Shown: piece by piece, positions 16,518-49,700 of the stretch
Layout: the number at the start of each line of letters is the position of its first letter
Position numbering within the stretch: position 1 is the stretch's first letter
NCBI RefSeq assembly: GCF_964355755.1
Contig: NC_092677.1
Coordinates: forward strand, 27,126,101-27,190,100
Origin: Antedon mediterranea
Lineage: Eukaryota; Echinodermata; Crinoidea; Comatulida; Antedonidae
DNA: 64,000 bases
Direction: 5' to 3'
Translations under genes and position numbers: made by a program
The notes under the pieces: generated by a model
What the model saw: the letters and a program-made list of their open reading frames with translations, nothing else
Told to the model about the DNA's origin: nothing
Database searches by the model: none

Positions 16518-16702
16518 GGGCCTAGTATTCATGTGGTTTCATTCTGATGTTCCATGACAGCGCTAATTATTATAAGAATAATTTTTTGGTATACTGTATA
16601 ATTTTGAAAAGCATAACTTTGTCATTTTTAAATATTTAAAGAATCTTATTTTTTAGATCAAAACATTTCTATAATTGTGGAAGCCAGTAAACAAAACTGA
16701 AG

Positions 16703-22700: not shown

Positions 22701-25700
22701 AAATTTAATTAAGCAGTCTTTAATTTAATCTTAAAAACTATATTTCACTTAAGCCTACAGTAGTCTACTGTAAACGTAACCAAAGTTTGCAAACAAAATG
22801 TTGGCAAAGTTTTCCAGTAGGTTTTAAATACAAACTGAAGTAAACAAAACGGATTAAACCATTAAAAAAATTCACAGGATCTTGAAAGGCAGTTGGCATT
22901 TGTCTTGCGACAAAGTTTTCAGCAGTGTCCAACAATTGGATCTCAGCTGCGTTTGCTGGAAGTTTTTGAAGGCATCAGTAGTCGTGAACTGGTGCAGAAG
23001 CACTTGAAAGACAAAGACAGTCAACTGGTGATGTCTTTTACCGCAGAATTGATCTCCGTAAGGAACATGTACTTCAGGTGGAGGAAGACGCCGCCTCAAC
23101 ATTCTAATTTCCCTCCAGTTGTCAGCAGACTTATATGGATCCGAGCACTGCGAAGAAGAATTCAGGTTAGTGGATTTTGGTTTTTATTTGATGCAGTTTG
23201 GTTACTATACATGTTAATTACAGTAAAAAATACAATCGAAGATAAGATTAAAAATTATCTTCTGTATACAGTACAGTAGGCCTCTTGGATCCAATGAAAA
23301 CAATAATTTGACAAATTGCTTATTTATAGGAGCCAATGGAGAAGTTGAAACGGATAAGTCCGCATTCTCTAGAGGGCGACACAGGCTGGCATCTTAGAGA
23401 TCAGTTTGCTGAAGCAATGAAAGAATTCACTGAATATGAGGAGAAAACAATTACTGATTGGCGAACAAACATACAATCTGAGCTGCATGATAGAGTCAAG
23501 CAGCCATTGCTGGTAAGTTTCAATCAATTATAATCTATTGTTTGTAATAGTTTTCTCTTTATTCTGTTGATCAAGTTGATCAATCAAAGATAAAAACACA
23601 GAAAAGTACAAAAAGCAACTTATTTTCACCTTAAATATTTTTTCTTCATTTTAATTTGGTGAAATATAATTAAAAACATGAATTTTTTTTCTCGTAAAGG
23701 TTGCTGATGAATTCAGCGATGATGTTGAAATGCGACCACAACTGGTTCATGTTAACTTAGACCCCGATCTTCTCCTACTCTTACGAGAAGTTCACTATTT
23801 ATCGCAAGAACCATTCAACATAAAATTACCGGACAATGTTCGCACAGTGCTGCGGCATATCAATGGTAACCTGCTGAGAACGAAGGGTGCCAGACTTGAG
23901 ACGATTGTCGCCAAGTATAATTCTGTTATGAAGTGCCTGGTAGACTTTGAGAGGCCTTTGTTTGAAAGAAAGTTGACAAAGATTGATCATGTAAGTACAA
24001 CTCAGAAAAATGTTACGGTTCATGATATAAATTGGGATACACCTATTCAAAGGACACTCCTGAACTTTCCTGTGAACTGAATGAGGAGCAGTATGTTATA
24101 TTCCATCGAACCACTATTCAGCGACATCCCAATGTACTGGTACTGGTTCAAGTGACCGTCTACATAGAGACATCTGGTAGCCATTGACATAAAGTTGGCA
24201 TATAGATTAATACTACTTTGAAGTGTACACAATATTTTGTGTTTTCTGAGAGTGAAATGCTACAGATATTGCAATAAATTACATAAAGTGGATCTTAATA
24301 GTCTTTCTTTAGAGGAGTTCTATTTTGTTGAAAGGAATGGTAAAGGAATGGTCAAGCAATAATGTAAATGAGGTGATTTTTTTCTCTCACAGATTTACTT
24401 ATTTGAATGTTTTACATGTTTCATTCTTTCACACTAGTTATTTGACCAAGGCTTGAACCACTACACATGGCAAATGACCGAGAGTGCCGATTTTATTGAA
24501 CTAGCTTCATCATTGGTCAGCCTTGACCTTCATCGGACATTGGCGGTAATACAGACCAACTGTCAAGAGATGGTGGACATTACACAGTGCTGGACATCTG
24601 CTGGTCTGGATGTGTTTACATCAAGAGATCCAGAGAAAAGCTACTCCATGGATAAACTTATCAAATGGCAAATGTTAGTAGTTTATTCACATTAATTTCA
24701 TAGAATACAATTTGAATTAATGACAGGAATTATTTAAGTAACTTTATCCAACAACTTTTATTCACTTAATATTTTAAATACTTTTCTTTCTAGAACACTG
24801 AACGAAGAGTTTGAACGTCAAGTGAAACCATCTGGGCAGAGAATCCATTCTCTTCTCATTAACTCATTCCAGGTAAAGCCCATCTTAAAGCTCTGTCTAC
24901 ACTATCAAACTAGTTTGACAAAAAAGTATGATGTGCCCAAATAAGTTAGTGATACTGTATTCCCAAATATGGTAGTGATATGACATCATCATGTCCTTAT
25001 ATGGGTACATCACCATTTTTTGTCACATAGCTTTAGTCTGTAGATCTATATTTTTCTTTTCAGTAGAATTAATAATAAATAGATGTTTAATGTTTAAAAT
25101 GTATGTTTTATAGGCTGTACAGATAAGTGCTGCGTCTCCAGCTTGGGAAGACTATGTGGAACACATTGATGCGCTCGTTTTGGATGGACTCAAAGAAGCT
25201 ACACTGAAATCATTGCGCAATATGCTTAATACGTTGGTACACTGTAACTTGGCAGAGGTAAACGCTTAGTTTATTTTATTTTGGTTATGTGTATTAATCA
25301 GTTTTAAACGATTGTATAGAATGCATATATTAAGGGGCTTTCATACCTGTTCTGGGGTGTTACTAGTCAGGCGCTGCCAAATCAAATCGAACCTCAATGT
25401 TTCGTTTTCACACGGCTATGAGTATACTGATTGGCACATAGCCACATAGAGCGTTGTGAAAATAAAACATTCAATTTTATTTGCTGGCGCCTAACCAGAA
25501 CTGGGTGGATAAAAGATGTGAAAGACCCTTCAGTTTAAACCAAGACTTAAATGGCTTAATTTCAACATGAATTCCATGACATCATTTCAACTTTGGTGTT
25601 AAGTTTTATAATGCTTTATCTTTCAGGAGGAGTCCATTCCAATTCTCACCATCCGCTTGGAACTGATAGAAAACGCTGTGTCATTCACGCCACCATTGGA

Positions 25701-28700
25701 TTTCAACACAGCTGTTACATGCGTGGAAGAAGAGGTTGAACGATGGCTTGACATGTACAAATCTCGCGGCTTATTAGTACCCATGCTTAATCCAGAAGCT
25801 GAGGTTTGTCACATCTTGATTTCTTTTTTATATTATTAGTAAACAATACTATATAGTGCAAAGTATAATAACAAGTGCTTAATGAATGATACTAGTGTAG
25901 TATCTGGTAAAATTCATGTTAGTATTAAGCTGCAAAAGTGTTTAAATTTCAGAAATATTTTATTTCTGGTACTGGTGAATTTAAGAAAGTGTATTGGTTG
26001 TTTTTCAGGGAGGTTACCAAGATTATATTTCATTAGATGAAGAAGTACTTAAACTGTCAGATGATATAACCATATTAGTGAGAGAAAACAGCTTTGATTG
26101 CAAGGTATTCAAATTTATTAGAATTTGTACAATTACATCTAGTTTAATTTATAATTATAAGCATTTTCTATTTTCCTGTTTTTAAATTTAAAATGTTTCT
26201 TGTGATAGAAACTGTTGGAGCTGTTTCAAAACTACACTTTCCTCTGGATGCAAGATATAAGCGAAACATTCGACGAATTTCTGTATGGACGTTTAAGCCC
26301 CACGCCAACAGGGTCACCAGATAAGAGTGCTCTCATGCGGTCGGTGGCTTCCGCTAGATCTGCAAAGTCTGCTCGCAGCGGAAGGTAGGTAATACTACTG
26401 TACAACTAGTGTAGCACTAGACTAGATATTAAATAGCATGCATGTTATACATTTCAGAATTTTTGTGAATAAATTGCAAGTTATTTTCATTAATATTAAT
26501 TATATAAATAAATAAAATTGTAAAAATATAATACACAGTTGCCTGTCTTTCTCTCTCTCTCAAACACAAAGGCAATGCATATGTCAACTTCAGTCAATGA
26601 CAGCCTTGGTCGAAAATTGCTAACCAAACAAGAACACATTATTTAACCTTTGATCGATTTCCTTTGATAGACCCAGTTCAACATTATTTAACCTTTGACC
26701 GATTTCCTTTGATAGAGCCAGTTCAGCCTCTAATAGCATCGGTAGAGCAGGATTGATGGGGACTGCAGAGAAGTCATTTCTGACACCAAAAGACTCGTCA
26801 GATGATAATATCAACGTGCCATCTCTTGACATGTTTGATGCAGAAATCGATGTTTACAGGGTATTTACTTCGTTTTCTAATTTTGTACTCTTTCGATTTA
26901 TGGCTTATGAGTTACTGGTAAAATATTTAGACTCACATTAACAAAGAATCAACAAATTGCCTTAAAGCGTGGTTCTGACTAGAGACGCAGTGCAATTCTT
27001 TCGATGTTGCCTGGCGTTGTTGCATATTTATTTGATTTCCCATAGCGATATTTGCAGCACTGTTATGTCATCGGTTCCCACATTATGCAATGCATCGATA
27101 TATCGTTGCGTTGCATTCTAGTGGGAACCTTGCTTTAGATAAAAAAATTAATTTTTACAGCGATCACGAGATGAGATTGGTAACATAATGGACTACACAG
27201 ATGTGGGCTGGCTACGAGTTGACATGACCCCAATCAAACAAGTGTTAACAACTTACACAAACAGGTGGATGTGGACGTTCATCAAATATCTATCGGACCA
27301 AGTAAAGACTATTTATACATTTATTAATAACCATTATATGTCAATAAAGTCTGGAGAGGAAATAGGCACCACTATGAGATATGCCTTATGCCTGTGTATT
27401 GTATCATGATGAGTACTACTACTGTATCTCATCAACTACGCCCCTACAATCATCATTGGACAACTAGAACTAGATAAAGTTATTAGAGAATGGGCCCAGT
27501 ATATGCATGCATTCCTGTGCATGTGTGTACTTCATGAGATAGGTTCTATCAGAAATAAGCTTTGAATAGTAATGCTTTATTACATACAGGATGTATCAGA
27601 TCCATGTTTTGCGGTTACATTTATTTTTGTATTATAAGGTTTATTGCAAATAGTTTGAGTGATGCATGATGGGAAGGAATTGGGAGAAACAGCGCCACCA
27701 CCAGTGCATAAAGTTGTTATATTGTAGCAATATTGCTCCCAAATCCTTGCGAAATCAAGCCATTTGTGATAAACCTTATTGTACAATACTTAGCTTTTTT
27801 TACAAATTTATTCTATTCCAAACTGTGTATTAGAGTACTGACTTAAACTACCAAATGCTGTAAACTAACTTTGTTAAACTTAACACAATTCACTTTCCAT
27901 TTGCATTGGCAGGTAACAGATATGCTTCAGGATTTAGATGATTTCCTTAAAAGAACTGAGCCAGAGATTGAGAGCATCACAGGTGAAGAGAGAGACACAG
28001 CTTCTTTTATGAAAATGATGAGGTTGTTTAATAAAGTGAGTTCTCATTCATTGTTATCTTCACTCAGATAAATTCAACCATGCATTAAGCTAAGCTATCA
28101 AACTTTATGTGGCAAATAAATATATGGACATGATGATGTGATATCACTACCAGATTTGGACATATCACTACCATATTTGGGCACATCACACTTTTTTTGT
28201 CAAACGAGTTTGATAGTGTAGACAGACCTCATTTATGAATAAGCTTCCATTCTAGAACAAATAATTTATTTTTGTTCATTGAACCGCCGGACATGTGCTT
28301 TAAATGCTACTTCTCTCCCTTTGAAAAGTCTTTACATTACCTCTTCATTACAAGTGTTTTTGGTTTTTTTAGGTTTCTGCTAAACAGCAAGAGATGGATG
28401 GTAAATTTACAGCGATGAATCGGACTGTCTTGTTGATAAAAAAGTACGGCCACACTCTGCCGCATACAACTCAGAAACTGTTTGAAGCTGCTCCCAGTCG
28501 CTGGAATAATCTTAAAACTAAGGTGTCATTAGCTAAGCAGCGATTGGGTCCTAGGATTCAAGAGGAATCTGCTAGGATCACAAAGGTTTGTATAGTCAAC
28601 TCTACCAATACCGGACTCTCTGAAAAACGAGAAACTCTCCCAAAATCAGATACTCTCCCAAAACCAGACTTTCTCCAAAAACAGACTTTTCTTGATGTCC

Positions 28701-31700
28701 AAAATGTCCCAAATTCATTTTTACCATTAAAAACATATTCCAACTTTCCAGAAAACCAGACAAATTGCTTGTGACCTTGCTGCTTAAGCTTGGTTCCCAC
28801 TAGAACATAACGCAAGGACGTTAACCAATGACAAGCGAAGTTATAGACAGTTAGCAATCACAAGCGAATAAGCCATCGCTTGTGATTGGTCAATTCACTT
28901 GCGTTGCGTTACGTCCTTGCGTTGCGTCGCTAGTGGGAACCACGCTTTACTAGGTGCTGCCTCATCATTTAAAAGCTTTTTATTTAGTAATAATAGAACA
29001 AATTGATTGTATTATTTTTCTCGATATACTAGTTAACTTATTTTTACCTGTTAGGATCTGGCTGCATTTGGAGAGCGTGTAGAAGAGTTGAGCCGATCTT
29101 TGAGGACATCAGATGTCTACTCCAGAGAATGTGGAATGGAGAATGCCTTTGGAATTATCAGTAGGTTCTTTGAACACCTGGACAAGCTGGAAAATGAAGC
29201 TCAGGTAATTTGCATATTTGAATAATTGATTATCTAAATTTACTGTACATACCTTGGTTTGAGTATAGTTTTGATAAATTAATTTAGAAAAGGTTATATT
29301 TTAAGATTATGGCATAAAATTACTACAAACGTAGTAAAGTAGTTTGTTATTAACGTTTTGTTTTTTGAATTCATTCATGTTTTGCCACCTCATGTAGTTC
29401 CTAGTTTTCCTTTCTCGTGGTAAGAATAATATATAACATTTAATTATTTGTTGGTTTTTCTGCTTTCTTTTGTACAAAGTATCCTTAAAGCAATATAACA
29501 AAGCACTACATTATATCACATTATTGTGTATGTTCTATAAAAGGCAAAGCTTGCATTTTTCTTACAGTATCAGTACTAGTATGTTATACCAGTACATACT
29601 GTACTATAACACTAGTAATTTATTCAATTATATATATTATATTATTATTGTTTTGAAAAGTTTGTGTAATATTAGATACTCCATAGTAAATTATTAGTTC
29701 TATGTTCAAGCTTAAATTTGAATGTACATAAAGCTCTGTCTACACTATCAAACTTTATGTGCCCATAGACATAATGATGTCATACATATTTAGGCATAAG
29801 ACTACCTACCATATTTGATCACATCACACTTTGTCAAACTAGTTTGATAGTTTAGACAGAGCTTTAGATCATGCATTTACTTCTTTGAATGTACAAGTCT
29901 GGTTTATTTACTTTCATTTTAATTTCAGGATTTAATTGAACTACAAGAGTTGCTAGAGACTGCTGTGGTGAACTTTTCAATCCTTCCAGAGTAAGTGTTA
30001 CCAACTAAGCACTGGCTACTGCTATTACAATCATTAATTTAACTTAAGTGTTACCAACTAAGCACTGACTACTGCTATTACAATCATTAATTTAACTTAA
30101 GTGTTACCAACTAAGCACTGACTACTGCTATTACAATCATTAATTTAACTTAAGTATTATAAGATAATAAACTGTTTTATGTTGATGCCATTTGTAAAAC
30201 CTGTCGATTTATTTCATTTCAGATGTCGTCATGAGCTGCGTAATCTCCAGCAGGTATGGGAGACGGTTCAAGAGGTCGACGACCAACAGGAGCAATGGAA
30301 GCAAGAGAGTTGGCAGAAAATGAACACAAAGTATCTAAGAGATGCGACAAATGACCAACTGAATATGGTGCGGTCACTTCCAGAGGATGTCCAGACATGG
30401 GACGTTTATTTACATATGCAGGAGTCTATTCTTGTCATTCAGGTACGTTTTGAGCAGAAAACATTTTTATGTTTTGTGGGATATCAAAAAAGCTCTGTCT
30501 ACACTGTCAAACTTTATGTGCCTGTATATGAACATATACTACCATATTTGGGTATATCACTACCATATTTGGACACATCACACTTTTTTTATAAACAGAG
30601 CTTAAGTAATAAAGAAAATAATAAAATAAATTGTTGTTGATTGTGACTTGTTTCTTGTAGGCTTGTCTACCTCTTATTGATGATCTTAGTAATCAAGCCA
30701 TGAGGACTCGGCACTGGAAACAACTAGTGAGGGTGACAGGTGGCATCTTGCAGATTGACAATGAGAGTCTCAAGAGAATGACACTTGGGCAACTTCTACA
30801 ACTTGGATTGCAAAGTAAACACTTATTTATTTTATTAGCAAAGAAAGAGTAACTTCCAACTTTGCTACTAAATTCAATTTATTTCCTCTTATGTAAACAC
30901 CACCTAGAACCAACCTTAAATCTTACCTAAGGGCTTCTTTGCTCAGGCACCAGAGATCTAGAACCAACCTTAAATCTTACCTAAGGGCTTCTTTGCTCAG
31001 GCACCAGAGATCTAGAACCAACCTTAAATCTTACCTAAGGGCTTCTTTGCTCAGGCACCAGAGATCTAGAACCAACCTTAAATCTTACCTAAGGGCTTCT
31101 TTGCTCAGGCACCAGAGATCTAGAACCAACCTTAAATCTTACCTAAGGGCTTCTTTGCTCAGGCACCAGAGATCTAGAACCAACCTTAAATCTTACCTAA
31201 GGGCTTCTTTGCTCAGGCACCAGAGATCTAGAACCAACCTTAAATCTTACCTAAGGGCTTCTTTGCTCAGGCACCAGAGATCTAGAACCAACCTTAAATC
31301 TTACCTAAGGGCTTCCTTGCTCAGGCACCAGAGATCTAGAACCAACCTTAAATCTTACCTAAGGGCTTCTTTGCTCAGGCACCAGAGATCTAGAACCAAC
31401 CTTAAATCTTACCTAAGGGCTTCTTTGCTCAGGCACCAGAGATCTAGAACCAACCTTAAATCTTACCTAAGGGCTTCTTTGCTCAGGCACCAGAGATCTA
31501 GAACCAACCTTAAATCTTACCTAAGGGCTTCCTTGCTCAGGCACCAGAGATCTAGAACCAACCTTAAATCTTACCTAAGGGCTTCCTTGCTCAGGCACCA
31601 GAGATCTAGAACCAACCTTAAATCTTACCTAAGGGCTTCTTTGCTCAGGCACCAGAGATCTAGAACCAAATTCCTTGTTCCATCCATTACACTCCATCCC

Positions 31701-34700
31701 CTTTTCAATTCAAATCTCTCCTGAAAACTCACCTATTTTAATAGTTATTCTTTTCATGTTGTGAGACTCCAGTAAAGAGCGCTTTAAAAAGTTTGATATT
31801 ATTATTACTTAAAAAAATTCAGAATACATGGAAGGAAGTAGTATGTTGTACATTTTTGTTATTTCAGATCATGTGGATGAGGTTCGAGCTATTGTGTATC
31901 GTGCTGTGAAAGACGTCTCAATAGAGAGCGCCCTCAAAACATATGAAGAGATCTGGTTGAGTAAGATCTTTGACTTAAAGACACATGTTCGTACTTCTGC
32001 TATTGCTGATCGTGTCGAAAAAGATGTGAGTCAAATTGTTGATGTTTTGTTTCTTGTGAACCAATAAATCTTGCAGTCTTTTGATGTTTTCCAAAAAAAA
32101 AAAAATATATAAAAAATGTATACTTTAATACCATTAAATTCTCTTTTCTTTTAGGATGACACCAAGAGCCAGTATTCAGAGTCTGATGCCGGTACAATGC
32201 GAGATGGAGCCCGGAGCTTGATTCTAGGCCGGCGAGCTCCCAGTCGAATGTCAAGTCAGACTATGGGTACAGGAGGAGCAAGGTTGAGGCGAGCTAGTGT
32301 GTCATCACTACCAGCCTCGCTACTCAATCTTGGCGAGGTATTTTTGATGAATCATCAGCCATTTGTGCCAATTAAATACAATCTTTTAATAGAAGTATAT
32401 TTATTCATTCATTCAATTCCTTTATTTCGGATAGTACATCCATACAAAATCTACAAAACAAAACAAAAACTAGGTAACTTCAGTAGCTTAACGTAGCCTA
32501 TTTTTAAAGCAAACTCTTCACTGAATTTACTCCATAGAGTCATACAATATACATAACTGACATTTCACTTTAACGCCTTTGATTAAATTTATTATTTGAT
32601 GATTTTCATTATATTTTAATCAGGATTCTGGAGTGTTAAATCTACTTTCTGATGTTGACCCAATCTTTGAGGAGCTAGAGTCACATCAAGTGGCTCTGCA
32701 GGGGATGCAGAGCAGCAGTGCCGCTGGCTCATTCCTTGACGAAGTTCTTAAATGGCAGAAAAGACTGCAAACTATTGAAGCAGTTCTGACAATATGGCTA
32801 GAGGTGCAAGTAAAATGGGTGGAGCTTGAAGAGGTAGGCTATGAATATTCATGGTGGCATATATGAATATTAATGAATAGAGTTATATTCTTGTTTACCA
32901 TTCCCAGGAGTTCTGTTTAACTTATTTTGACTCTAAACAGCACCATTGCAAAGTTTCATACAATACAGTTTTTATATGATTGAATGCACATAAAGCTCTG
33001 TCTACACTATCCAACTTTATGTGACAAAAAATGTGATGTGCCCATATATGGACATGATGATGTCATATCACTACCATATTTGAGAACATCACTACCATAT
33101 TTGGGCACATCACACTTTGCCAAACTAGGTTGAGTGTTTTTATTTATGATTAAAACTTAACTTATTATTTTATAGGTTTTTAGTGGTTTGGATATAAAGA
33201 GTTCTTTGTGCCATGAAGCAGGATTATTTGGTTCAGCTAACAGAGAGTTCAGGCTTCTAATGAGAGCCACAGAACGTAACCCAAATGTACTACAGTGCTG
33301 TCAGAGAAAAGGTATTTAATTCTTAGATTTTTAATAAAACTAACGTAACTTTAACGCAACTATAACTACAGTGCTGTCAGAGAAAAGGTATTGTGAATAA
33401 AACTCTTTTATGAATAGTCAGAAAGTTTTGTTTTATTCGTAGTAATTGTCAACCATAACAACTGGTAGCTGGCTTATTTACAGCCAACAAGCATTTTTCA
33501 TTTTTATATATTCGTTTTGCAGGCATATTATCATTACTGGAAAAGATGGATCACCATTTAGAACTCTGCCGTAAATCTCTACTAAATCATCTTGAGAAGA
33601 GGCGTCAGAAGTTTCCTCGATTTTATTTCCTGTCCATGGAAGACGTTCTTCACATTGTTTGCAATGGTAAGGTGTTTTTATTTTACAAAACTATTTATGA
33701 ATGTACTCCCAAATATGAAGACCTATGGATGCAAATGAATACCTTTTGTAACTAGATGTATGTTTTGTTTTCTAGGTTATGACTTGAATATGGCAAATCT
33801 TTACTTGCCTAAGTTGTTTGAAAATATGGGCCGACTAGAGTTTGAAGAAGCACCAGAAGATCTTGAGGCTCAGTTTCAAGTTACAGGTGTGCTCAGCAAC
33901 ATGGGAGAGAAACTTCCTCTGAAACAGGTAAATGGGGTCTAATTTTGAGCTCTTCTATTAGCTTACCAGTTTACTACTTTACCACTTGAAAACCTAGTTC
34001 ATTATTAAGCGTGGTTCCCACTAGCGACGCAACACAAGGACGTAACGCAACGCAAGTGAATTGACCAATCACAAGCGATGGCTTATTCGCTTGTGATTGC
34101 TAACTGTCTATAACTTCCCTTGTCATTGGTTAAAACGCTTGCGTTGCGTTTACGTCCTTGCGTTACGTTCTAGTGGGAACCAAGCTTTATATTACTATAA
34201 CATACATAGATGTAGTAGTTTCGTGTCTTTTACAAAAATTATATTTCATCATTTTTTAAATTGTTTTCTATTTTTACAGATGGTTGTATGTGATGGACCA
34301 ATTGAGAACTGGTTAGCTGTTCTTATACCAACCATCAAAGCTAGCTTACAACAGCAGTTGGTATCGGCTCTCAACCACCAAGCAGCGGAGGTCACTGGGG
34401 TCAAGAAGGTCAAAAGAGATATTCATAGTGCTGGAGCTAGAAGGGTTACAGTACTCAAAGATGATAATAAAGGTAGATACAGTATCTAATTTTGCTTAGG
34501 CGCTAATAATTTTGTTGCAAATTTTGGTCCGGGATATATTCTGATTAGCATTTTAGACTTAAATGCAAGCCCTCTTTTATCCTCCTAATTCAAATCTTAA
34601 ATCTTAAAATATGCATTCTACATGTGGAAATAAATAAAGAATTAGATTGAAAATTGATTTAAGTGAGGTTGAAATACTTAAGTAATCCTTATCTAACGAA

Positions 34701-37700
34701 TTTACTTGCCTTACTGTTGAAAGGTGCTCAAATCAGCCGTTCTGGTAGCCGCGCCGATAGTCGTAATGAAAAACCTGAAGTCCGTGAGAGTACAGAAACG
34801 TCCAGTAGATCTTGGATGTTGGACAATGCTGCAGAGGTCGTTCACCTTGCCACTCAGATTCAGATTACAGACCAGGTTGAGAAATGTCTGAAGGCAGTAG
34901 ATGGTGGCGACAAAGAAGCTATTAAGGTAAAAATATTATATTTAATTTTAAACATATTACCTAAATCGCAAATAAAGCTCTGTCTACACTATCAAACTAT
35001 AAAAGTATGTGATGTGCTCAAATATGGTGGTGATATGTCCAAATATGGTAGTGATATGACATCATCATGTCCATATATAAGCACATCACATTTGTTTGTC
35101 ACATAAAGTTTGATAGTGTTTCAAATGTAATATTTAAATGTTTAACAGGCATTAAAATGTTGTTACTTTAAAGTCTTTAAAAACTCCTTTATTTAATAGT
35201 AGGGATACTTTTTTATTTTGTAACATTTTACATAAGATATTCAGTTTTTGATTGAATAGGAAGCAATTGCAAAAGTGGATCAGAGTATTTTAGCAGCTGT
35301 TGTGATGATGAAAGGAATTGAACATGAAGAAGAACGAAAAGCAAGGATTAGGAGAAGGAGGGAATTACTGAATAAAGAAGGTAACATTTAATCACTTTTT
35401 AAAAATGTCTGTGTCCACATTTATCTATTTATTTATCTATATTGATCTGCTTTTGTATCAAGAACTTTTGCCATCAAGTCCACCACACAGATTATTATTA
35501 TTACAATGTTTAAATCCCAATTGGAATGCCTTTTTATGTACATTTTTCTCATCTTTATCAGACATACTTAGTTACATACCAGGTATATTTATTGTAAAAA
35601 AGGAGACGAATAATGCTACAAATAGCCGGAAGGCTGAAACCGTAACATTTTACAGTACAAAAAAAAAATATATGAATATATTATTTTCATTACTTTAAAT
35701 TTGTATATTTTGCAGCTGAAAAGCAACTGCAACGTGCAACCAGTGCATCAGATAACGCTGGCAGCCGAATGAGTGCTCATCACAGCAGTGTGCAATCACT
35801 GAGGGCTTCTAACTGGTCTCTGAATGACCAAGGGCCTGTTATGGACTTAGCTAGTGAGAGATCAGCACAACTAGATGGGGTAGCTGAAGACGATGAAGAA
35901 GGTATGATAATAAACATGCAGAAACGATATTACTGCTAAAGCTCTGTCTACACTATCAAAAGTTTGACAAGAAAAATGTGATGTGCCCAAATATGGTAGT
36001 AATATGACATCATCATGTCCATATTTTTTTTTTGTGACATAAAGTTTGATAGTGGAAAACGAGCTATAGAGATGCAACCAGTTTGATACAATTTCTTTTG
36101 TTTTGTTCAGGTGCGTCAGTGAATACAATGAAGGTAACGTTACCACCTGAAAGACGACATCACAAAGTGGTTGTAGAAGAACGAGTCGACCAAGCTGAAC
36201 TTAAACTAATGCTGTTTCCTGGACAAATTCAAAAGATTAGTAACCTTATTGCTCTTCTTGCCAACCAGCGAGAGGTATTAAAAAGGTAAACAAAAGTTAT
36301 TCCTAATATTAAACTTGACACCACCACTTTCTATGTCATTTAGCTGAACACTCAATATCTGTATGTTAAACCATTCAATAATACATACAAAAATAATTAT
36401 ATACAGATGGTTAATATAAAAACCAGATGAAAACATTTTTCAAAGAAATGAACACACAATATACGTTGTCTAGCCCTTATATTATAATGCATTAAACTAG
36501 AGACACGCACTAATACTGTAGGGGGATGATGAAATAAAATTTTACAAAAATAAAAAAAATGAGTTGTGAATGATCTGTTTTTAATATCAATGTGTTGTCT
36601 TGATAAAGATTTGAGGAACGGCAGACATCTGGTGAGACTGGCCTCACAGAAAGTTTTGAATGGCGGGCTCAGTTAAGATACAGCTGGACATCAGAGAACG
36701 CCACACTTACTGTCAAGGTAAGCACACTCTTAGACAAATGATGGCTTTATTTAGTCAATTTAATTAATCTTTATTGGCCTAATTCATATGAAAAAAAATA
36801 TCAGAATATTTGTTAATAAACTGCAGCAGCAGATAAAACAATGAAATACGTAAAAAAGTTAAAAACAAATTACTGTACAGTACAGTACAGTACTGTACTG
36901 TACAGTACAGTACAGTGCAGTATATTAAAGAAGTAAATAAAAAATTTAAAAAAAGTTATAAAATATAATTATTAGTATTATATACAATATTCAAATGTAG
37001 ACTGTGCGTTTGTTGATTTGAGAATACTCATTATTTGTAATACTTTACACAAATCTTGTTATTACTTTAAATCTCATTGTAGAGTTTAGCAAATGAGTTT
37101 GAGTATGGGTTTGAATACATGGGTTCAACATGTCGACTCGTACAAACACCTGTGACAGAGACAGCTTACGTTGGCCTCATCCAAGCTATCAAGGCACAAA
37201 TGGGAATAATGGGAGTTGGCACTAATGTAAGTTCATTTGTTTTTACATATTTATTTATTCCGAGTTTGAGTTTTGAGTTTGAGTTTTTATTGAAAACATA
37301 ATAAACCTTGGTAAATTTATTCCAAAAAGACAAATATTATTGTATACATGATTTTAATGTTATTTTTTGTTTCTTGCTTAGTGGAATAGTCGCATTGAGG
37401 TTATACGTGATTTAGCTAAAACTCTTGGCCAGCCACTTTATCTGTTTAACTGTTCCAAATCTATGGACTCCATCCTTTTAGCTGATGTGTTCAAAGGCCT
37501 AGCCAGTACAGGTAAATATTATGTTTTAACATGAACATTTCGTAGTAGAAACATCATTTTGAGTTTAGTTGCAGGCAGACATGTCATTGTTATTTAGAGC
37601 AGCAGCCATTATTCCTGTGATGTCATTGTTATTTAGAGCAGCAGCCATTATTCCTGTGATGTCATTGTTATTTAGAGCAGCAGCCATTATTCCTGTGATG

Positions 37701-40700
37701 TCATTGTTATTTAGAGCAGCAGCCATTATTCCTGTGATACAGTACAATTCTTGTGCTTTAAACTATGACATGTTTTTTATTCCTGCAAGAACAGAGTTGG
37801 GTAGCAGTATAGTTCTCTGGTTTCTCTTATTTTCACACTATAAAATTTTCAGACTCTATAGATAATTTTATTTGATCGAAAATTCAACATTTTTGTTTGT
37901 TTCTGTAGGATGCTGGGTTTGTTTCAACAACCTGAATCATATTTTACCAAATGTGCTGAGCATCTTCACTCAGTTCCTAACCCAGTACCTTGATGCAAAG
38001 AGAGCAGGCAAGTCAAGCCTTGCTATATTCAGTGAAGAAGTCGGTTTGAATTCAGCTGGTGCCTGCTTCGCTACAATGGACAGCGCTCTAGATTTGACTA
38101 CAAGCGCAGCAGAGAAAAGACTTATATTGAACTCGTCGGTTGCTCAGCTACCGCCCTCACTTGTGACATCGTTCCGTACAGTGTCTATTCAAAACCCTGA
38201 CTTTGGAATTGCGGTTGAAGTTTTACTTCTTAGTCAAGGTACTGTATGCATGCCTTCATTCTTCACTTTGTTTGTTAAACTCAACTAAAGCTCTCTCTAC
38301 ACTATCAAACTAGTTTGACAATAAAAGTGTGATGTGCCCAAATATGGTAGTGATATTCCCAAAATTTGGTAGTGATATGACATCATCATGTCCATATATG
38401 GAAACATCACATTTTTTTAAATCATAAATTTTAATAGTGTAGACAGAGCTTAAGATCTTGATTCTCAACTATGATGCTAAAACATTTTTTATTAATATGG
38501 ATTATATTTTTTAAAATAAATTGATCTTTTATGACAGGTTTTGTAAGGGCTACTGAATTAGCCAAGAAGCTTCTAACATTACGTGAAATGTACAACAAGA
38601 TGATCCCAGGTGAGGTGCGTAATGCAGACAAGATAAAGATTGGTAGCGACCCCCACGAGACGTCTCACGGCTGGAGTATTCAAAACCTACGAAACGTCAT
38701 CAATCAAGCTGGCTCCATTTTAGATGACATGCTAACGCAGAAAATACAGAATGTTACAATTCCTGGTAACTGTCCTACACGTTATATTTCAAAATTAACA
38801 ACTAAATAAAACTACACAACTTATCTTATTTACAGTACAAAACAAACCTACAGTGTAATTTGTGAGAGCCCTACCTGTATACAATCTACATATGCCATTA
38901 TTCCCAATATGGACATACCATATTTGGAATAATGGAATATGTACAGTGTATACATGTAATGTAGGTATCTCACTCATAGACTACAAACACCACTGTTGGT
39001 TTGTGTATATTTTTTCTTAAACCAAGAATGAGAGAAGAGAGTTGTACTTTATTTTTAATTTGTATTATTTACTTTTTCATATTAAGAACTGGACACTGTA
39101 AATGAAGATGACGAAACCAACGAGGAACCAACCATTGATTCGAACCCCGATTCCAATGTAGTAATTACTATACCAGATGAGTACATAACAGATGAACCAG
39201 AAGCATTGGTGTTGGCTCTAAGGGATATGTTTATGCCACGCCTTCATGGCAGTGATGCAGAGATGTTTATCACGCTGGTTGAGGATCTCTTCCCGTCTGT
39301 TAAGGTTGCTATGACTTTTGAAGGAGCGTCACAAGATGATGGTTTGTGCATTCTAGTTATTTTCAATTCATTTTAAGCCCCCTTCTGCTACCTCTCGTTA
39401 GTAATGGGTTCCTGTTTGTATAAACTACCATATAGTTCCCTAAATTGTTACATATGTGCTACAGCATACCAAACCAAATTTTCTGATCTTTGTAATTGTT
39501 TTCACACTATAGATATTTGTATGACAGTTGACACAAACATAGACTGAGCCTAATCTTCAAACTCAGTACTCATTATAGTGTAAAGATCTGTCTACACTAT
39601 CAAACTAGTTAGACAAATGTGATATGCCCAAATATGGTAGTGATATGCCTAAATATGGTAGTGATATGACATTATCATGTCCATATATATCACATTTTGT
39701 TGTCACATAAAGTTGGATAGTGTAGACAGAGCTAAGCCTAATCTTCAAACTCTGTACAAAGTACTCATTACAGTGTTGGTTTCATTGTTTTTCTATAACT
39801 TTAGATACTTTAGAGTTTAATACAGCTGTTGTAAGTCTGCAGTCAGATGGCAAACAAGTTCCCAATGTAAGCTCACAAGAGACCCAGCCTCTTGATAATC
39901 TAGATGCTGCTATAGCTGTAGCTACACACAGTCTGGGACTACTACCAGGTACTGCATTCCAAGCTAGAGTAGCTCAGCTAGCTCAACTAATGGAAACACA
40001 TCAAACAGTAAGATATATAATTCTTATTGTTGTTTCTGAATCAATATTTTGTTAACCAGTCTAAATTATACTACTGTACTTTAATACAGTAACTACAGTT
40101 GTTTTTATTGCCATCACGTGTGCTTTTAGTTTGTTGGTTATTTGAAATACAGTGTGTGATTACCCCTAAAAAATTAATAATTGCATAAACAGATTATGAG
40201 TAAACAAAATGTAATTGTTTGAAGGTTTGCATGGTGAAATCAAATGTTGATATAGAGTTTGCCGTACACCACATATACAGTATTAGTTCTAAAAAGAACT
40301 GTTGAGTTTTATTAGATTTGATTTTTAATCAATATGCTTTGATCGTCCTCATATTATTTTCATATCTTTCTATATGATATACAAATTTGTATGATTACCA
40401 GAATTTAATATGACTTTAGTATAGGTCCATTTAATGCATGACTGAACATGGTAGTTGGATTTGTAAGATATGATTGACACCTATTTGATTGACAGGTGGC
40501 TGTGGTTGGGCCTGCTGGTTGTGGCAAGAGTGAATGCATAAAGACATTGATTGGAACTCAACGTGGGCTAGGCCATGTGGTTAGTGTTCAACGACTCTAC
40601 TCACAGGCTGTAGAACCTCAGGAATTTCTTGGCTTTTATGATAACAATGGGTGAGAACATTTGTTTATTTATTTAAAATTTCAATTCACAATCAACAGCG

Positions 40701-43700
40701 GGGAGCTCCGCCATTTACAATGGAATTCATAAAACACAAGACAAAAGAACATCGATAAGGTCCACAAGAACCAATTACAAACAATTCTTAATTTTGGATT
40801 TAAATAAAGATAAACAATTAAAGAAAATATTAATAGTGGATTAAAAAAACACAAGTTTTAACACCTTTCACTTCAAATAACCAGCTAAGAAAAAGAAAAA
40901 AAAAGATACACTTTTTAAAGTTTCTTTTTTCAATTATATTTAGTGAATGGAGTGATGGTCTATTCAGCACATTGTTCAGAAAACACTGTTTGGTGTGTGA
41001 TGTGGACTTTGTCAACAACAAGCCACAAATTAAGCTTATTCATCTTGATGGACAGGTAAGACAGACCCAACAATGTGTCACTACATTAATTTAGTGTTGT
41101 TTTTAGGGTGTCTTGAAGGAGTGGTTTTACTGTAGTTATAAACATAATAATACTATACTGCTTACCACGTTGAAACACTGGTTCTCGTCAAGTCACCGAA
41201 GTTAAGCAACGTTGGGCCTGGTTAGAGACCATCTGGGTGCTGTATATGGAGCTGGGGTCCCATTAGTCATTTGAAATCAGCACTGCTGACTCTTATGGCA
41301 GCCCCTGCATCAGTACAGTTTTTGCCTCAGAAGTCCTTGATCAATGTTGGCACCAACCAATGTTCTTGGCTTAGTTTCATCCATCAGTCAATGAAGAAAT
41401 GCAATACTATACTGTAAAAAAGAACTCAAAACATAAACATTTTTGTATTGTTTTTATACAGGTTGATGCCAGTCAGATGGAAGTGTTTGGTTCGATCTTT
41501 CACAACGATGGTTCTTTGGTGTTGGCCAATAATGAGAGGATACACATCCCTCACCACGTCCGTATCTTGTGGGAGGTAAGTTAGTAATCAGGGTGTTATG
41601 TTATGTTATGTGTATGTTACTTATGTAATTTTAATTTTCTTCAATTCAAGTGCATCACAAATTTGTTCTAGGGGAAAAACCAAACCTTCAAACTTGACTC
41701 AATTTTAACCCAACTTTGGTAATACTGGCCTAATATGTCTAGTTTTTCAGAAAGTCTGGTGTTTGGAATGTGTTTTATTGATAAAAAAGAATTTGTGCCT
41801 TTTTGGTCCTCAAGAAAAGTTTCGTTTTGGGAGAGTTTCAGGTTTTCAAAGAGTCTGGTATTGGAAGAGTTGACTGAAATGAAATTTTAACCAAATGTTT
41901 TTCTGTCTACAGTTGGACTCTTTGACTCATATTAGTCCAGCAGTCCTTTCTCGAATTGGTCTTCTATCCATGGACAAGTCAGACGTCAGCTGGCGACTTT
42001 ACCTACATCGTTGGATCCAGAACCAGTCTGAGGGTGATCAGAAGCTGCTGTATACACTTACTGATCGATACATTGGTTCAGTCATAGACTACATGTCAGA
42101 AGCTACCAGACCTGCGCTCATTCCAGGTGGGAAGTTGAACGCACAACCAAAGTTAAAACGAATGATTGATGTTGGTGACATGAACATGGTTATGACATTC
42201 TGTAACTTACTGGAGGTGAATTAGCAATGCATATTTAACTTTTTTTTAAATTTGGAAATTTTCTTTCTGATTGAAGTTCTTTTTTTAAAATCCTCTGTTT
42301 TGTGTACTACTACTATACATTTTTTTAATCTAATTCAGTGAAATTATTTTTATTTTCAAAAAAAAATAGGTACTAGTAGCCCAAAATTCTCAGCTAAGTG
42401 AGTTACAATACGAAAACTATTTCAACTTTGCTGCAATCTGGGCGTTTGGAGGAACACTTGACGATAAGTCTCGTACAATGTTCAGTACTTGGTGGCGCTC
42501 TACATTCCAACAATACATTCAGTATCCAGAGGAGGGTGAGGTATGTACCCACTATAACAATAACATTTTGAATACTCTCAAACAATCGTAAAATCAAAAA
42601 GTATTCTTAAAAACACAAAATGTCTCATTTTCAATGTTATATAAATCAAAAATGAATAAAAAAAAAATTTAGTAAAGTAGATAATAAAAGTAGATCTCAA
42701 GTACACCAGCAGTGAAGTAAACTGATAACTAAGTATCTGTCAATGACGGCCATGTGTCTTTAGAAGAAGACGGCTTTGACATTCTGTAGTGAAATCAAAC
42801 AGTACTTTAAGACACAACATTTTGCTGTAAGTAAATAACAAATTGATCATGTTTGGATATTTTTTTGTTGTTCTCTTGTCTGCCAAGGTGTGGGATTACT
42901 TTGTGGATGGAGATACACAGAGCTTTATAGAATGGAATGAGGCTATTCCACCATATAGCATGCCTCCCCATGATGGTATACCAGCAGATGCATTTGTACG
43001 AACAAAAACATATGAGGTGAGTTTATCAGTAAAAATCAACACTGTGACTTTTTTTGGAGGTTATTAAGTGAGGTCTTGTTTTTCTCATCATAAAAAGTCA
43101 TATTTATTATTAATATTAACAATTTATTCCTATAATTTATTAATAATATTTTTATTTTTAGCAACTTTCTTACATCATGGGCTTATTGTCTGACAATGGC
43201 AAGCCAGTGATGTTGGCTGGTGAACCTGGTTGTGGTAAAACACTTATCTTCCAAGATCGCATGAAGACAGTGTGTTCTGGAGAAGTTGCTGAGGTCCTCG
43301 CTTTGAATGTCACCAGTAACAGGTAGGAAAGAATATTTACAAAATATTTCATAAATTACTATTTTATTTGTGCATGTGATGAAGAATACAAAATAAAAAA
43401 TAAACAATGTTTTATTTATCATTTAAGTAGTTTGAAAAAGTTATTTTAAAATTGGTTTAATTCATAATAGATTCACAACAAGTCGAGTCTTATGGCAGCG
43501 TCTTGAAGAGAAACTGGAATGGAAGCACGGCCGAACATATGTACCGAAAGGAAACAAAAAGCTCATGTGTCTTGTGGATGACTTGAACCTTGCCAATGTA
43601 AGTGTGCATGCTAAACTTTAAACTATTAATTGAGTTTGCATTTTGAGCCAAATAAATTTTTATAGAAAGTTCAAAAGCTTTTTGTAGTGCTTTGTAAGTT

Positions 43701-46700
43701 GTTTTTGGAAATTTAATGTTTTGACCTTTTCTTTATATGTTCCTATATTATTCAATTTTTAAAACTTTGATAATAATTGGATAACTTCAGGTGAATTCAA
43801 GTGGCTCCCAGTCGGCATGTGAGATGATACGTCAACACATGGACTCTGGCGGAGTCTACGAGCCTGATCTACAAGTTTTACGAGAGGTTAAGAACGTGAC
43901 CTACCTGACTACATTGAACCCCAACACACCTGCAAGCATGCCACCGTTGAGCCCTCGACTTCTGCGCCACTTTGGAATGTTTTCAATGCCATACCCAAGG
44001 TGAGCAAAAACTGTAATGAAGAAAATTGTCCAGATTTTTACATTAGTCAAAATCTGTAGAAGATTCAATCAAGTTTGAGTGAAGTTGTGGCTTGATGGTT
44101 ATGATGCTTGGCTACCAATCCAAGGGTCCTGGTTCAAGCCCTGTCATATGTCAGGATTTTTTCTCCCACTCCCAAAGACGTGTAATTAGACTTATGTAGA
44201 GCATCTTGCATGTATGTTTGTCTTGTGAACAGGATTGCCACCTTTAAGAAGGATAGTGAATGCATTTGCTTATGGTTATCCTTGGCAATATATATAAAAA
44301 CATTTATCTACCTTTTCTTTTTATAAGGGATGATGAACTACATACCATTTACACCACTCTACTTAACACTCACTTCTGCACTCCTTCAACTTCATCATTG
44401 ACTTCAAAAGATAAGGTAAGTCTGAAGCCCAAATATGGTAGTGATATGCTCAAATATAATAGTGATATGACATCATCATGTCCATATATAGCATAGATAG
44501 GATAAGTGAATAATCCAGTATTTTTGAAAAGAAAATATTTTGAAAATGTGATTACTATCACCAACTTGATAATAAAATGTAAATATTCTGAAAATATTAG
44601 TAGCCATTATGATTTGTTTTAGCGACCTTTAAATCTTGTGGACAAAGAAGAAGAGAAGATGAAAGAACTGATGTCGATGATGGTCAATGTAACTCTAGAA
44701 GTCCAGGGTCGCATGAGGTCAATGTTCTTGACCACTGCCGAACGATGCCATTACATGTTTAATGTCCGAGAACTAACAAGAGTGTTTAAGTAAGTAATTT
44801 ATATAATTTTAATATATATTATTTTTTTTGTTATGTACTGGAGGTTGAAGTTTGAATGGCCACACCATGATTCTCATGGTATCTCTAATCTTGACCCTCT
44901 TCTCATGATGATGAGAACCATGATGATGATAACAAAGATTTAGATTATGATAATGATATAATCTCTCTCTGTTAGGAACATATGTCTTTCACTAAGACCT
45001 GGCGCCGATCTTGAAACCCTTCTTCTAATCTGGCGCCATGAGTGTGAGTGGGTTTACAGCAAAAGACTAGTGAGTGCTGTAGATGTTGAACGCTACCAGC
45101 AAGTCTTTGTCACGGCAGCTAAGAAGGAATTCACAAGTGAAGAATTTGTAAGTGAAATTCCACAAATGCCTAGTTAAATTCCACTAATTCATAGTGAAAT
45201 TCCACAAATACCCTTGTTTTGCTAAATAACTGGCAATAGAATTCAATTTATGCTTACTTAGTGTGTTTTGCTCTTTAGTTTTAAACTAAATCTTAATGTG
45301 TTGTAGTGGTATAACCTTTGCTTAGATTAAACTTTGACTGTACTTTAGTTTAGTGATAGAATATTTTGTTTTTTCTACTAGTTGATAATAATTGCTTTTA
45401 GCAAATTCTCTTTTAAGCTATACTTTTTGTAGTTGTCTATTTATGTGTTATGCTAACATATTGCTTTTAATACATTTTACTATGAAAGGAGCAAGAAAAG
45501 CAGTTACCAACAGATATCAGAGGCAAAATGGTATGAAATGTTTGTCATTCTAATGATAATATTACATGTTTATACTGGCAAATCTCTTATTTAGAACAAG
45601 TACAATATCAAGTTTATTTTATAAATACCATGTACATTCAATGGAGACGGTGTGAGGTTATTGAGATTCACAAGTCGAATGTATAAATGCAGTAAAAAGA
45701 AAGTATCCATTTGTATGCAGTGGTGTACATTCATTTTTCTTCCAATTATTTTCTTAGTTAAAGCTTGTTATCGACCTGAAACAGCCATTATTCAGCAACC
45801 TAGTTGAACAAGACAGTGGTATTGTAACAGCTGGTGGATACAAGGTATCATCAACAACAAGCAGTATGGTAGCAGACGACGAAAGGACCGACCAGTACAA
45901 GCCGTGTTACAATGTAGATCAAGTTCGTTTGCTTACACAAGACGCTGTAGAGGAATACAACAAGGGGCATCCACGGATTAAACTTGCTTTATATCGAGTG
46001 AGTACAAACATTTCCCTCCGTAATGTTACCCTTTACAAAGAAGTCAAAGAATGATGACATAAGCAATGTCAAAATCTCTTTTTAAATGCCATTTTAAGTT
46101 TACACCCTAAAAAGAAAATGGAACAGTCTAGATAAGAATTTTGTTGATGAAAACATAACATATACATTTTATTTGCAGGAGACAATTGAACGTGTATGCC
46201 GCTTAGCCCGGACCATTCAGTCCCCTCATGAGGTGGGCCACGCCCTCTTGGTGGTGGTGGGCAATCCAGGAATTGGTGACCTATTCCCACGCCTGGCAGC
46301 TCATCTATGTGGATTTATAATCTTTGAGGTGAATCCTTCACCAGTAGCTTCAACCAAGTCTTACAAACTAAGTCAGTTCAAGGCTGATCTAGTGACTGCT
46401 TACACTCGAGCTGGAGTTAAGGTAATGAAATTGATTTGTATTTTTGTTAAGAGTTAGGGAGACATGCCCTTTAATGATAATGATGATAGCTCCATTTTGA
46501 TGTTTCACTGAAATGAATAAAAGAAAATGTAATACTAAATAGTAGTAACATTTACTTAATTATCTACTTTGCTATATGCATTCATTTAAAAGTCACTATA
46601 CTATAACAATGTTAGAATTACATAGTCTTTTTGTTTTTATTTTTTAATTAGTATTACATAGTAATATTTACTTTCTTAATGTTAATCTTGGTTTTCACTC

Positions 46701-49700
46701 TTTTGTACGATTTGGATTTTACAAATTTTAAAATTCTAATTTGTTTTAATACTGTAATTTAATATTAATGTGTAAATTAAGATTTTCAGTTTTTGGTTAA
46801 ATCCTTATTAATAATTTAATTAATATCTTTAGTATTAAGTGTCATTGTCATTGTCATTGTCAAGATAAACTCTTGTTGTTAATTGTTTAATTGCTAAATA
46901 GTGTATAATGTCTTACGGCCTTGTCGAAAAACACCATTGAGGTGAACAAGTGTTACCGTGATTAAATAAAGTTTTTTTTATTATATTATAGTCAGTAACT
47001 CACCTTAGTATATGGTTACCTCAATGCATGATAGATAGGTTGATAGCCTACATTACTTATTCCTGTACATTAAATATAAAATGGTATGCTTTAAGGGTGA
47101 GAAAGTTTTGTTACTGCTAACAGAGGAGGAACTTCTAGATGAGGATTTTCTTGTGTACATTGGTGAGTTTGTTGTAACAGGCGCCATCACACATCTATTC
47201 ACCTCCGAGGAGCAAACATCAATCATCAACTCCATCAGAACAGACGTCACTGCTGCAGGGTTGACTTACACAAGAGATACTGCATGGGACTTTTTCCTGA
47301 AGTGAGAATCTTTTATTTTAAACCCATTTATGTATTCATTTATTTAATTCTTTTTTTGTATTTGTTTATCCTCTATTTATTTAATTAATTCCACTTGGAT
47401 TGACAAGCAAAAGCTTTTTATTTAATCTGTTGTCACCAGCTAATCAGCTAATCAGCTAATCATTAAAATATAATAATAATGGTAGTCTAAAATAACTCCT
47501 AATAAAATGTTTCTAAGCGCTTTACACACAAAAATGATCCATTAAATATCCTAAGATAACCAACAAAGGAAGAAAAGCAGAGGAACCATTTACACTGCTC
47601 TCTTCTCCAGCACAATCTTAACAAAATATTTCTACATTTATAGGACTGTTCGCAATAATGTCCGCGTTGTTCTGGTTTCATCAACAAGTGGATCAGACTT
47701 TCAGAGACGTTGTCGGGAATATCCAGCTCTTACTGCTAACCTCAACTGCCATTGGTTCCAACACTGGGGCAGGGAGGACCTTGTTGACCATGCTACATTT
47801 CATCTTAAAGGTATCAAACTTTAGTTTAATTTGCTAGTCTTTATATGATAATATATACAAATGTATTAATTAAATTAAATCTAGTCTACATTAGCAACAT
47901 TTTGTTTTGCAAACAAAAGTTTTATAAAGCTTGGCTGTGAAGCTGTATCTTGGTGGTTAACATGCTTGCTTTCCAATCCTAAGGTCCAGGGTTCAATCCT
48001 GACCTTGTACCAGAGTTGTAACTCACGACTCTTTCAACTCCACTCCCTAAGCCTCAAATGAGACTAAGTTTATAAGCATGATAAATTATTAAATAGTTCC
48101 ATCCTGTAATTAGTGAGTTACTCACTGTTGGATGCTTATGAAATAAAAGAATAAACAAAACAAAGAGAGTGATTATTTAGCAACTTGTTTAGCAAACATG
48201 ATTTTGTTGTGTGTTATTCTTTTTTAACAATATTGTGGTGTTATTGTACAGAGTTTAAGGTTGTTACCAGCATTCAACGTGAGAACCTTGCCCATTTGTT
48301 GGCATCAATGCATCTAGCCATTAGACAACTTGATGGTAAAGAAACAAACACTGGCCAACACAATCATTTGACCAATACAACATTTGAGAAATTCATAGAA
48401 TGGTAAGAAATTTCTAATAAGGTTTTTCGCAAATAGCTTATGTGATGCATGGTGGGAATGGTTTGGAAGCAAACGTCACGACTCGTACGTACTGTGATTT
48501 GTTGTTTGTATGTATGCGTCATGACGTTTTCTTCAAAACCCTTTCCATCATGCATTGTCCAATGAGTATCCTTGCGGATTCAATCTATTTGCGATAAACC
48601 TTATATAATAGTATGTATTTTTTTGTTTTTATTTTAGCTTTGTGAGTATGATGTTTGAACGCAAGAGACATATTGAAACAGAACATGAGACAGTGACGAC
48701 AGCACTGCAGTACATCAACAGAGAGAACAAGCTGGCTACCAGGCTCAAGAAACAGCTAGAACATGAACTAGTGGTACTGGAAGAACGAAAAGATGTTAGT
48801 ATTTAATTTCTTACAAAATGTTAGTTTGAAATATTTTGACTATTTTGGTTTTAAGCCATTAACTTTAATCTTTAATACTGCATTGCAAGAGTTCTGCCGG
48901 CTAACACCAGCAAAACTGGTTCCAACGAGATGATTTGATTTGAAGAGTAGCCAAAGATAGAAGAAGAAGTCAACCCACTGGTCTAAATCTGAATTAAAGA
49001 TAGTTGAAATTACAGAAAAAAGGACCTCAATAGCTTAACGTAATATTACAACTTGTTATATCTTATTCACAGGGTACTATTAAACTTTTGAGTCAAATTG
49101 GTCAGGACACTGCAATCACTGAACAACAAGTGAAAACAGTGATGAAACAGATGGATAAGATTGACAAACTTAAACAGGTCAGTTGTTATTTAAATATTAT
49201 TGTATATTGAGACACTTACTATAAATATTGCCAGATAAATAAAATGAGAACTAATTCCCCACTTCCTATTGTTCTTGTTTGGCTAACCGTTCTTAATTTA
49301 GAACATCAGGCCGTCATTAACTGAAGTTGACATATGCATTGCCGTTGTGTGAGAAAGACCGGCAACTTATGTACTATACATATATGTACTACATTATACT
49401 ATCTTATTCTTTATGTTCATTTTCTTGTAGGCCTTGCCTCAATACTCTCTAGCTCATGAGAGAGCAGTGTATAAGACAGTAGCTGTGGTAGCAGACACTA
49501 AGAAGATAGTAGAGAACATCGATATCAACAGCTTACAAGAGTTGAGAGCAATGCAGAAGCCAGATGTTGATATAGAAGATCTCATGGGTTCCATCATTAT
49601 GATATGTAAGTACTGACTTAGGATAATCACTCACTTGTGCAAGCCCACTTACGTTTAAACACCTGTTCTTGCTTTTTGTGCATCAAAAGTGTTTTAAATG

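Follow-up and report, generated by a model that had tools for sequence, protein, structure and literature searches.

The window, a stretch of 64,000 nucleotides from the crinoid Antedon mediterranea (contig NC_092677.1, positions 27,126,101 to 27,190,100), carries a gene for a full-length dynein heavy chain whose AAA1 domain is without its catalytic residues. The original prediction, made from the letters alone, had called this protein a pseudo-motor. The core of that claim, a full-length dynein without AAA1 catalytic residues, is confirmed here, and our analysis adds an ancestry that the prediction did not contain—the tail and motor appear to be those of the outer-arm beta class (DNAH9/11/17), from which the protein seems to have diverged long ago. 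Our favoured reading, which we consider likely, is that the window dynein is a functional pseudo-motor that split off long ago and belongs to the outer-arm beta class of heavy chains.

The changes in AAA1 can be read directly from the exons. The exon that ends at 37226 encodes ...MGVGTN and the next, from 37382, encodes WNSRIEVIRDLAKTLGQ, giving a Walker A motif of GTNWNSRI, while the exon at 37909-38238 encodes GCWVCFNNLNH, with both Walker B acids replaced by Asn—exactly as first predicted. The earlier statement that the P-loop glycines and Thr are gone needs one amendment: Thr has become Ile, Lys has become Arg and two glycines have changed, but the first Gly is retained. In addition, the sensor-1 Asn is replaced by Asp (TMN to TMD). 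The intron that splits the P-loop has clean splice sites, also as predicted; its donor, AATGTAAGT, ranks at the 99.6th percentile among all GT/GC sites of the window and its acceptor, TTGTTTCTTGCTTAG, at the 97.8th percentile among all AG sites. The other AAA1 introns have ordinary splice sites, and the exons tile the AAA1 domain in the alignment. An unrecognised exon restoring GxxGxGKT or the DE pair had been named as what could overturn the prediction; a scan of 36,301-38,800 in all six frames, which an intron-split motif would escape, found no unsplit Walker A and no acidic Walker B, and a hidden exon with an unsplit motif was rejected on these grounds. As a separate observation, a 39-bp unit is repeated 4.1 times with 100% matches at 37581-37738, within the AAA1 intron 37512-37908.

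The loss stands out against the other dyneins of the genome. A search with the AAA_6 profile gave at least 89 exon matches, which were grouped by hand into at least 18 dynein loci besides the window gene, any dynein lacking such a match being uncounted. All 18 were fetched and aligned, with the P-loop pieces of three (L011, L013 and L017) added from separately read frames. Every one of them retains GxxxxGKT in AAA1, and 16 of the 18 combine GPAGTGKT with CFDEFN. The remaining two, L017 and L018, are long-branch dyneins. L017 is very divergent, has a long AAA1 insert and reads GPTATGKT in Walker A and LFEDVDN in Walker B (DE to ED), which makes it a possible second catalytic oddity and a possible DNHD1 candidate. 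L018 is divergent too, with intact AAA1 motifs (GGTGVGKT, CLDEFQ) and DNAH5-type chains as its best matches. The genome's own beta chain, L008, is best matched by DNAH17 and DNAH9; it and L009 are near-identical outer-arm beta genes on C1, at 2.21 Mb and 2.60 Mb, some 0.38 Mb apart, which reflects either recent duplication or an artefact of assembly. DNAH5/8-like paralogs are present as well (L006, L007 and L014, classed by eye from motif context and tree). A search of the genome with the tail found no second close copy of the window dynein, although divergent copies may escape such a search.

The gene model was built as a self-trained exon chain, which on the plus strand yielded 89 exons and 5,306 codons without a stop, at a score of 817; it replaced an earlier run, started at 18,000, with 78 exons and a total of 4,678 codons. 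The control scores were far lower (61 on the minus strand, 10.5-15 in three shuffles and at most 18.3 in 20 more), yet the codon table had been trained on the window dynein itself, so these strand and shuffle controls are not independent and independent support comes from Pfam. The Pfam scan, run in five pieces that covered all of the protein except two short stretches, found DHC_N1, DHC_N2, AAA_6, AAA_7, AAA_8, MT, AAA_9, Dynein_heavy and Dynein_C in that order; E-values for five of them are listed in Table 1, and that of Dynein_heavy was 2.7e-9. A coiled-coil model of axonemal chains 2/5/8 likewise matches (4.4e-7). With AAA2 recognised by alignment and the other domains by Pfam, the protein has tail, linker, AAA1 to AAA6, stalk with microtubule-binding domain and C-terminal domain in the order of a dynein heavy chain. 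One acceptor was moved by eye against the beta paralog, from 50271 to 50247, bringing the total to 5,314 codons and adding 8 residues at a 7-residue gap in the stalk alignment, which was made with the earlier acceptor. One intron is of the GC-AG type (62838-63108). A search with the beta N-terminus revealed no further exon before 17148, though a divergent one could escape it. Signs of a pseudogene were not found either: the frame is intact through 88 introns, there are 0 in-frame stops in 5,314 codons, and no close kinship to a live parent was seen, the highest identity being 32%.

Measured against this model, the full-length architecture first proposed is borne out by the 89-exon frame and by Pfam domains from tail to C-terminus, and the retention of linker, stalk and microtubule-binding tip by those domains and the stalk alignment. 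The long open frame was also recognised correctly, at 5,314 rather than 5,365 codons, as were the AAA1 exon junctions, which belong to exons 38-40 rather than 40/41/42. Nucleotide binding by AAA2 and AAA3 is consistent with their P-loops, both intact by sequence (Table 1). The SRIGLL segment of AAA2 occupies what we take to be the position of the Arg finger facing AAA1. In length the stalk is almost equal to that of the genome's own beta chain, to which 294 of 297 residues align, and the AAA5 insert is rich in acidic residues (18 D and 18 E among 106).

Table 1. Features of the window dynein, by position in the window, and the two divergent dynein loci found elsewhere in the genome
Feature	Position	Strand	Basis or remark
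Coding span of the dynein heavy chain	17148..63959	+	89 exons, ~5,314 codons; exon chain and Pfam domains in order
Stop codon TAG	63960-63962	+	
N-terminal tail, DHC_N1, outer-arm beta type	17148..23948	+	Pfam 3.2e-110; best structure match Chlamydomonas outer-arm beta, 377 bits
Pre-linker and linker region, DHC_N2, with Ser-rich inserts	26831..36717	+	Pfam 6.7e-103; inserts read in translation
AAA1 domain	37083..38602	+	Pfam AAA_6 4.2e-57
Degenerate AAA1 Walker A, GTN/WNSRI, split by intron 37227-37381	37218..37396	+	direct reading, alignment
Degenerate AAA1 Walker B, CFNNLN (DE to NN)	37920..37937	+	direct reading, alignment
AAA1 sensor 1, TMD instead of TMN, followed by a 14-residue insert	38073..38081	+	alignment
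AAA2 Walker A, GPAGCGKS, intact	40508..40531	+	alignment
AAA2 SRIGLL, Arg-finger position, Arg kept	41949..41966	+	alignment
AAA3 Walker A, GEPGCGKT, intact	43219..43242	+	alignment
AAA3 Walker B, LVDDLN, resembling axonemal paralogs	43571..43588	+	alignment
AAA4 P-loop, VGNPGIGDL, read as degenerate	46257..46283	+	alignment
Stalk coiled coil and microtubule-binding domain, 305 residues	48401..50665	+	Pfam MT 1.1e-28, alignment, exon start 50247
Acidic low-complexity AAA5 insert, ~105 residues	51551..52204	+	alignment
C-terminal domain, Dynein_C	61516..63959	+	Pfam 3.5e-46
L017, divergent dynein	C1:11,254,900-11,264,800		
L018, divergent dynein	C7:29,613,500-29,623,400		minisatellite of ~2 kb in locus

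Both ends of the molecule point to the outer-arm beta class. In the tail comparison the nine top matches among 27 sequences are beta or beta-like chains, led by Chlamydomonas beta (377 bits) and followed by Tetrahymena (314), 9y6s_5c (261), 9e5c_7b (248), DNAH17 (230) and DNAH9 (206)—the 9y6s and 9e5c chains, named only 'putative', being read as beta from their ranking—and the next class, the inner-arm I1 beta chain, follows at 143 bits. The motor is likewise best matched by DNAH17 and DNAH9. Tail and motor thus agree on a beta-class assignment, of which the protein lacks one hallmark, namely the motifs of a working AAA1 ATPase (GTNWNSRI, CFNNLN and TMD). In a tree of 19 rows the window dynein joins L008/L009 with support of 94/98, and in one of 15 rows (L013, L014, L017 and L018 removed) its sister is the genome's own beta chain (98/97). 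When PDB chains were included and eight loci omitted (L005, L006, L009, L011, L013, L014, L017 and L018), it fell inside a group of beta-type and third-chain sequences supported at 100/98 and was basal to 9y6s, the third chain and animal beta (84/86). Its branch is long, at 1.7-2.4 changes per site.

The intron positions also differ from those of the beta chain. None of 24 is common to the window dynein and L008 (0.45 expected by chance), compared with 17 common to L008 and L009 (of 20 and 21); two are common to the window dynein and L016, and one each to L011, L014 and L018. Between classes, most gene pairs of the genome have only 0-4 positions in common. Because tail, trees, long branch, introns and the lack of a second close copy concur, we take the gene for an old lineage rather than a recent copy. 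A recent decaying copy was rejected on the highest identity of 32%, the long branch and the tree position; of the scenario once raised, a decaying copy inside a class with active AAA1, only the placement in or beside such a class holds.

Conservation was compared domain by domain, using near-invariant columns defined from 15 paralogs (L009, L017 and L018 left out). In AAA1 the window dynein keeps 6 of 17 such columns within the motifs and 36 of 61 elsewhere; the corresponding figures are 5/6 and 17/32 in AAA2, 4/4 and 6/8 in AAA3, and 1/1 and 14/19 in AAA4. The motif loss in AAA1 differs from AAA2 and AAA3 taken together, where 9 of 10 motif columns are kept (one-sided Fisher p 0.007, a contrast picked after the data had been seen). 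At the same time, identity to the genome's own beta chain—itself a prediction from four adjacent loci in the pairwise domain comparison—is flat across AAA1 to AAA4, at 34.3, 33.2, 34.2 and 32.9% in the multiple-paralog column analysis and 33.5, 33.7, 32.3 and 29.6% in the pairwise alignment; therefore the AAA1 domain as a whole shows no quicker decay than its neighbours. The pairwise values elsewhere are 28.2% and 24.7% for tail N1 and N2, 30.7% for the linker region, 22.1% for stalk and tip, 29.6% for AAA5, 25.2% for the AAA6 region, 22.6% for the AAA6 lid and 32.7% for the C-terminus. The intact frame and this flat conservation by domain suggest that the gene may be under selection.

In active dyneins AAA1 drives the mechanochemistry, AAA2 holds ATP unhydrolysed, and AAA3 and AAA4 are regulatory, as stated in the parts of the two sources used here (PMC12338079, PMC7215579). 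Judged by its motifs, the AAA1 of the window dynein should be unable to bind and hydrolyse Mg-ATP, because of which ATP-driven release and the power stroke would be lost; the ring should not close, nor should the stalk slide or the linker make its stroke. The beta-type tail would still pair with a gamma-type (DNAH5/8) chain and with the block of intermediate and light chains, leaving a passive head that would serve, in certain cilia or sperm, as a tether, brake, spacer or subunit for assembly, with nucleotide at AAA2 and AAA3 perhaps exerting structural or slow regulatory control. We advance more tentatively, and consider rather doubtful, an extension of this picture in which the protein would stand for an ancient class of its own, made up of pseudo-dyneins that derive from beta and separated before animal beta diversified, with an outer-arm-docked, ATP-independent head, AAA1 and AAA4 silenced and AAA2 and AAA3 kept; such a head could be a static crossbridge or an assembly template.

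Several points weigh against a silenced, anciently diverged beta-type motor. Some degenerate AAA+ sites still bind nucleotide. The sole near-invariant motif column of AAA4 is retained, and the degeneracy of that site rests on alignment by eye. Within AAA1 itself the contrast between motif and non-motif columns is suggestive only (one-sided Fisher p 0.07, likewise chosen post hoc). A placement beside or within the animal beta lineage is not rejected (approximately unbiased test, p-AU 0.124), and because the branch is long the exact place inside the beta class is unsure. Shared introns carry little weight as evidence, the window dynein and beta being as distant as one class is from another. Finally, stalk (22.1%) and AAA6 lid (22.6%) have the lowest conservation, and the many inserts could reflect relaxed constraint.

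Four other explanations were considered. The protein might still be ATP-driven, either with hydrolysis moved to AAA3 or with an altered AAA1 pocket that works with Arg in place of Lys; AAA3 does keep an intact Walker A and LVDDLN, and the Arg-finger position of AAA2 is kept. This is nevertheless improbable given that both acids of Walker B have changed together with the sensor-1 Asn and, in the P-loop, with Lys, Thr and two glycines, when AAA1 of all 18 other dynein loci found retains GxxxxGKT. An error in the gene model or assembly, such that the real transcript uses other AAA1 exons, strikes us as very improbable indeed: the model is predicted from DNA alone, the six-frame scan is blind to a motif split by an intron, and the 397-bp intron between the P-loop and Walker B exons holds the 39-bp tandem array, but that scan gave 0 matches and the exons tile the domain. 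The gene may also be a ghost, i.e., an orphan duplicate that has no specific function and a motor that is weakly selected and slowly eroding, a view that has been printed for DNHD1 (PMC8754002) and would fit the long branch, the many low-complexity inserts and the degenerate AAA1 and apparently AAA4. We consider it unlikely, since the frame is intact over ~5,314 codons and 88 introns, the divergence is old, conservation is flat by domain and the stalk has kept its length.

The alternative we take most seriously, plausible if short of probable, is that the window dynein is an invertebrate DNHD1 orthologue, in which case it would join a family already described, and its AAA1 state may be general in the DNHD1 family. 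L017 on C1 and L018 on C7 are equally divergent and stand as rival candidates. A synteny test used TAF10, RRP8 and TPP1, the neighbours of DNHD1 in human. TAF10 lies on C3, RRP8 on C5 and the window on C8, and TPP1 had no match; TAF10 and RRP8 are themselves apart here, so the result carries little weight. The name DNHD1 occurs neither among the best 60 of 84 PDB matches to the motor nor among the 27 tail matches, some PDB names being visibly wrong. In favour of the assignment are, in the parts of the papers drawn on, the similar size of the human protein (4,753 aa, with a 'hydrolytic ATP binding site' region at residue 1997; PMC9916431), its description as an orphan and ghost gene (PMC8754002) and its roles in cilia, in human sperm flagella (PMC9916431) and in zebrafish morphants (PMC9749982).

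Upstream of the window dynein lie exons matching anamorsin/CIAPIN1 (9831-12225, plus strand) and polypeptide deformylase (13290-13895, minus strand), together with a minus-strand gene at ~2.1-8.3 kb; by eye this gene resembles TPX2, and the single exon of it that was scanned gave no Pfam match. Minisatellites occur in or beside the dynein gene at 14948-16130 (23 bp), 16311-16518 (22 bp), 18622-19164 (9 bp), 30904-31669 (54 bp), 54159-54738 (93 bp) and 61789-62152 (59 bp). A 21-bp unit, GTGATATGCCCAAATATGGTA, recurs with variants in many introns (at 21609, 38329, 39619, 51301, 52465 and others) and is possibly part of a dispersed repeat.

Axonemal dyneins are regarded as motors with an essential AAA1 cycle. 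In the literature, searched by title and abstract opening, we found no description of a full-length axonemal dynein with a dead AAA1, although a printed statement may exist elsewhere. If the favoured reading of a beta-derived pseudo-motor is true, the dynein frame would have uses that need no force, and a passive head in the arm would become directly testable. An outer-arm beta origin would also offer a concrete phylogenetic hypothesis for DNHD1, a protein needed in human sperm flagella whose origin and mechanism are left open in the passages of the papers cited here. The nearest kind so far described is an orphan dismissed by others as a ghost, and the window dynein may provide a clear example, open to test, of an axonemal dynein with a dead motor.

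That orphan, DNHD1 (human 11p15.4), resembles the window dynein by description only, as a divergent dynein-like protein of similar size with orphan or 'ghost' status, perhaps turning into a pseudogene in the relevant part of PMC8754002. The published mammalian data, as far as the cited sections go, concern sperm flagella, where its loss in humans causes flagellar defects (PMC9916431), and knock-down in zebrafish affects cilia and laterality, according to the portion of PMC9749982 used. The main text of a mammalian axoneme structure paper, in the part consulted, makes no mention of DNHD1 (PMC11779644), and a 2007 dynein survey holds nothing on a DNHD1-type gene in the parts checked for a few terms (PMC2239267). 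The two long-branch loci of the same genome, L017 and L018, are comparable in divergence, and L017 has an altered Walker B (EDVD), but both keep GxxxxGKT. The third outer-arm chain (Chlamydomonas alpha, Tetrahymena gamma) has a beta-paralogous motor with an enlarged, phosphorylated AAA5 loop, as portrayed in the section of PMC12338079 drawn on. The long AAA5 insert of the window dynein is only a putative counterpart of that loop. The third chain carries a beta-propeller/Ig N-terminus, whereas the window dynein matches just one Pfam family over its first 992 residues, the DHC_N1 tail, and the tree unites the third chain with the 9y6s chain and animal beta, leaving the window dynein outside (84/86). 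The outer-arm beta chains themselves (DNAH9/11/17 and the beta chains of Chlamydomonas and Tetrahymena) share with the window dynein the same tail, linker, ring and stalk, provide its best tail and motor matches and enclose or adjoin it in the tree. From these it differs in the missing nucleotide motifs of AAA1 and the altered P-loop of AAA4 and, relative to the beta chain of its own genome, in an identity of only ~22-34% by domain and in extra inserts in the linker, AAA5 and AAA6.

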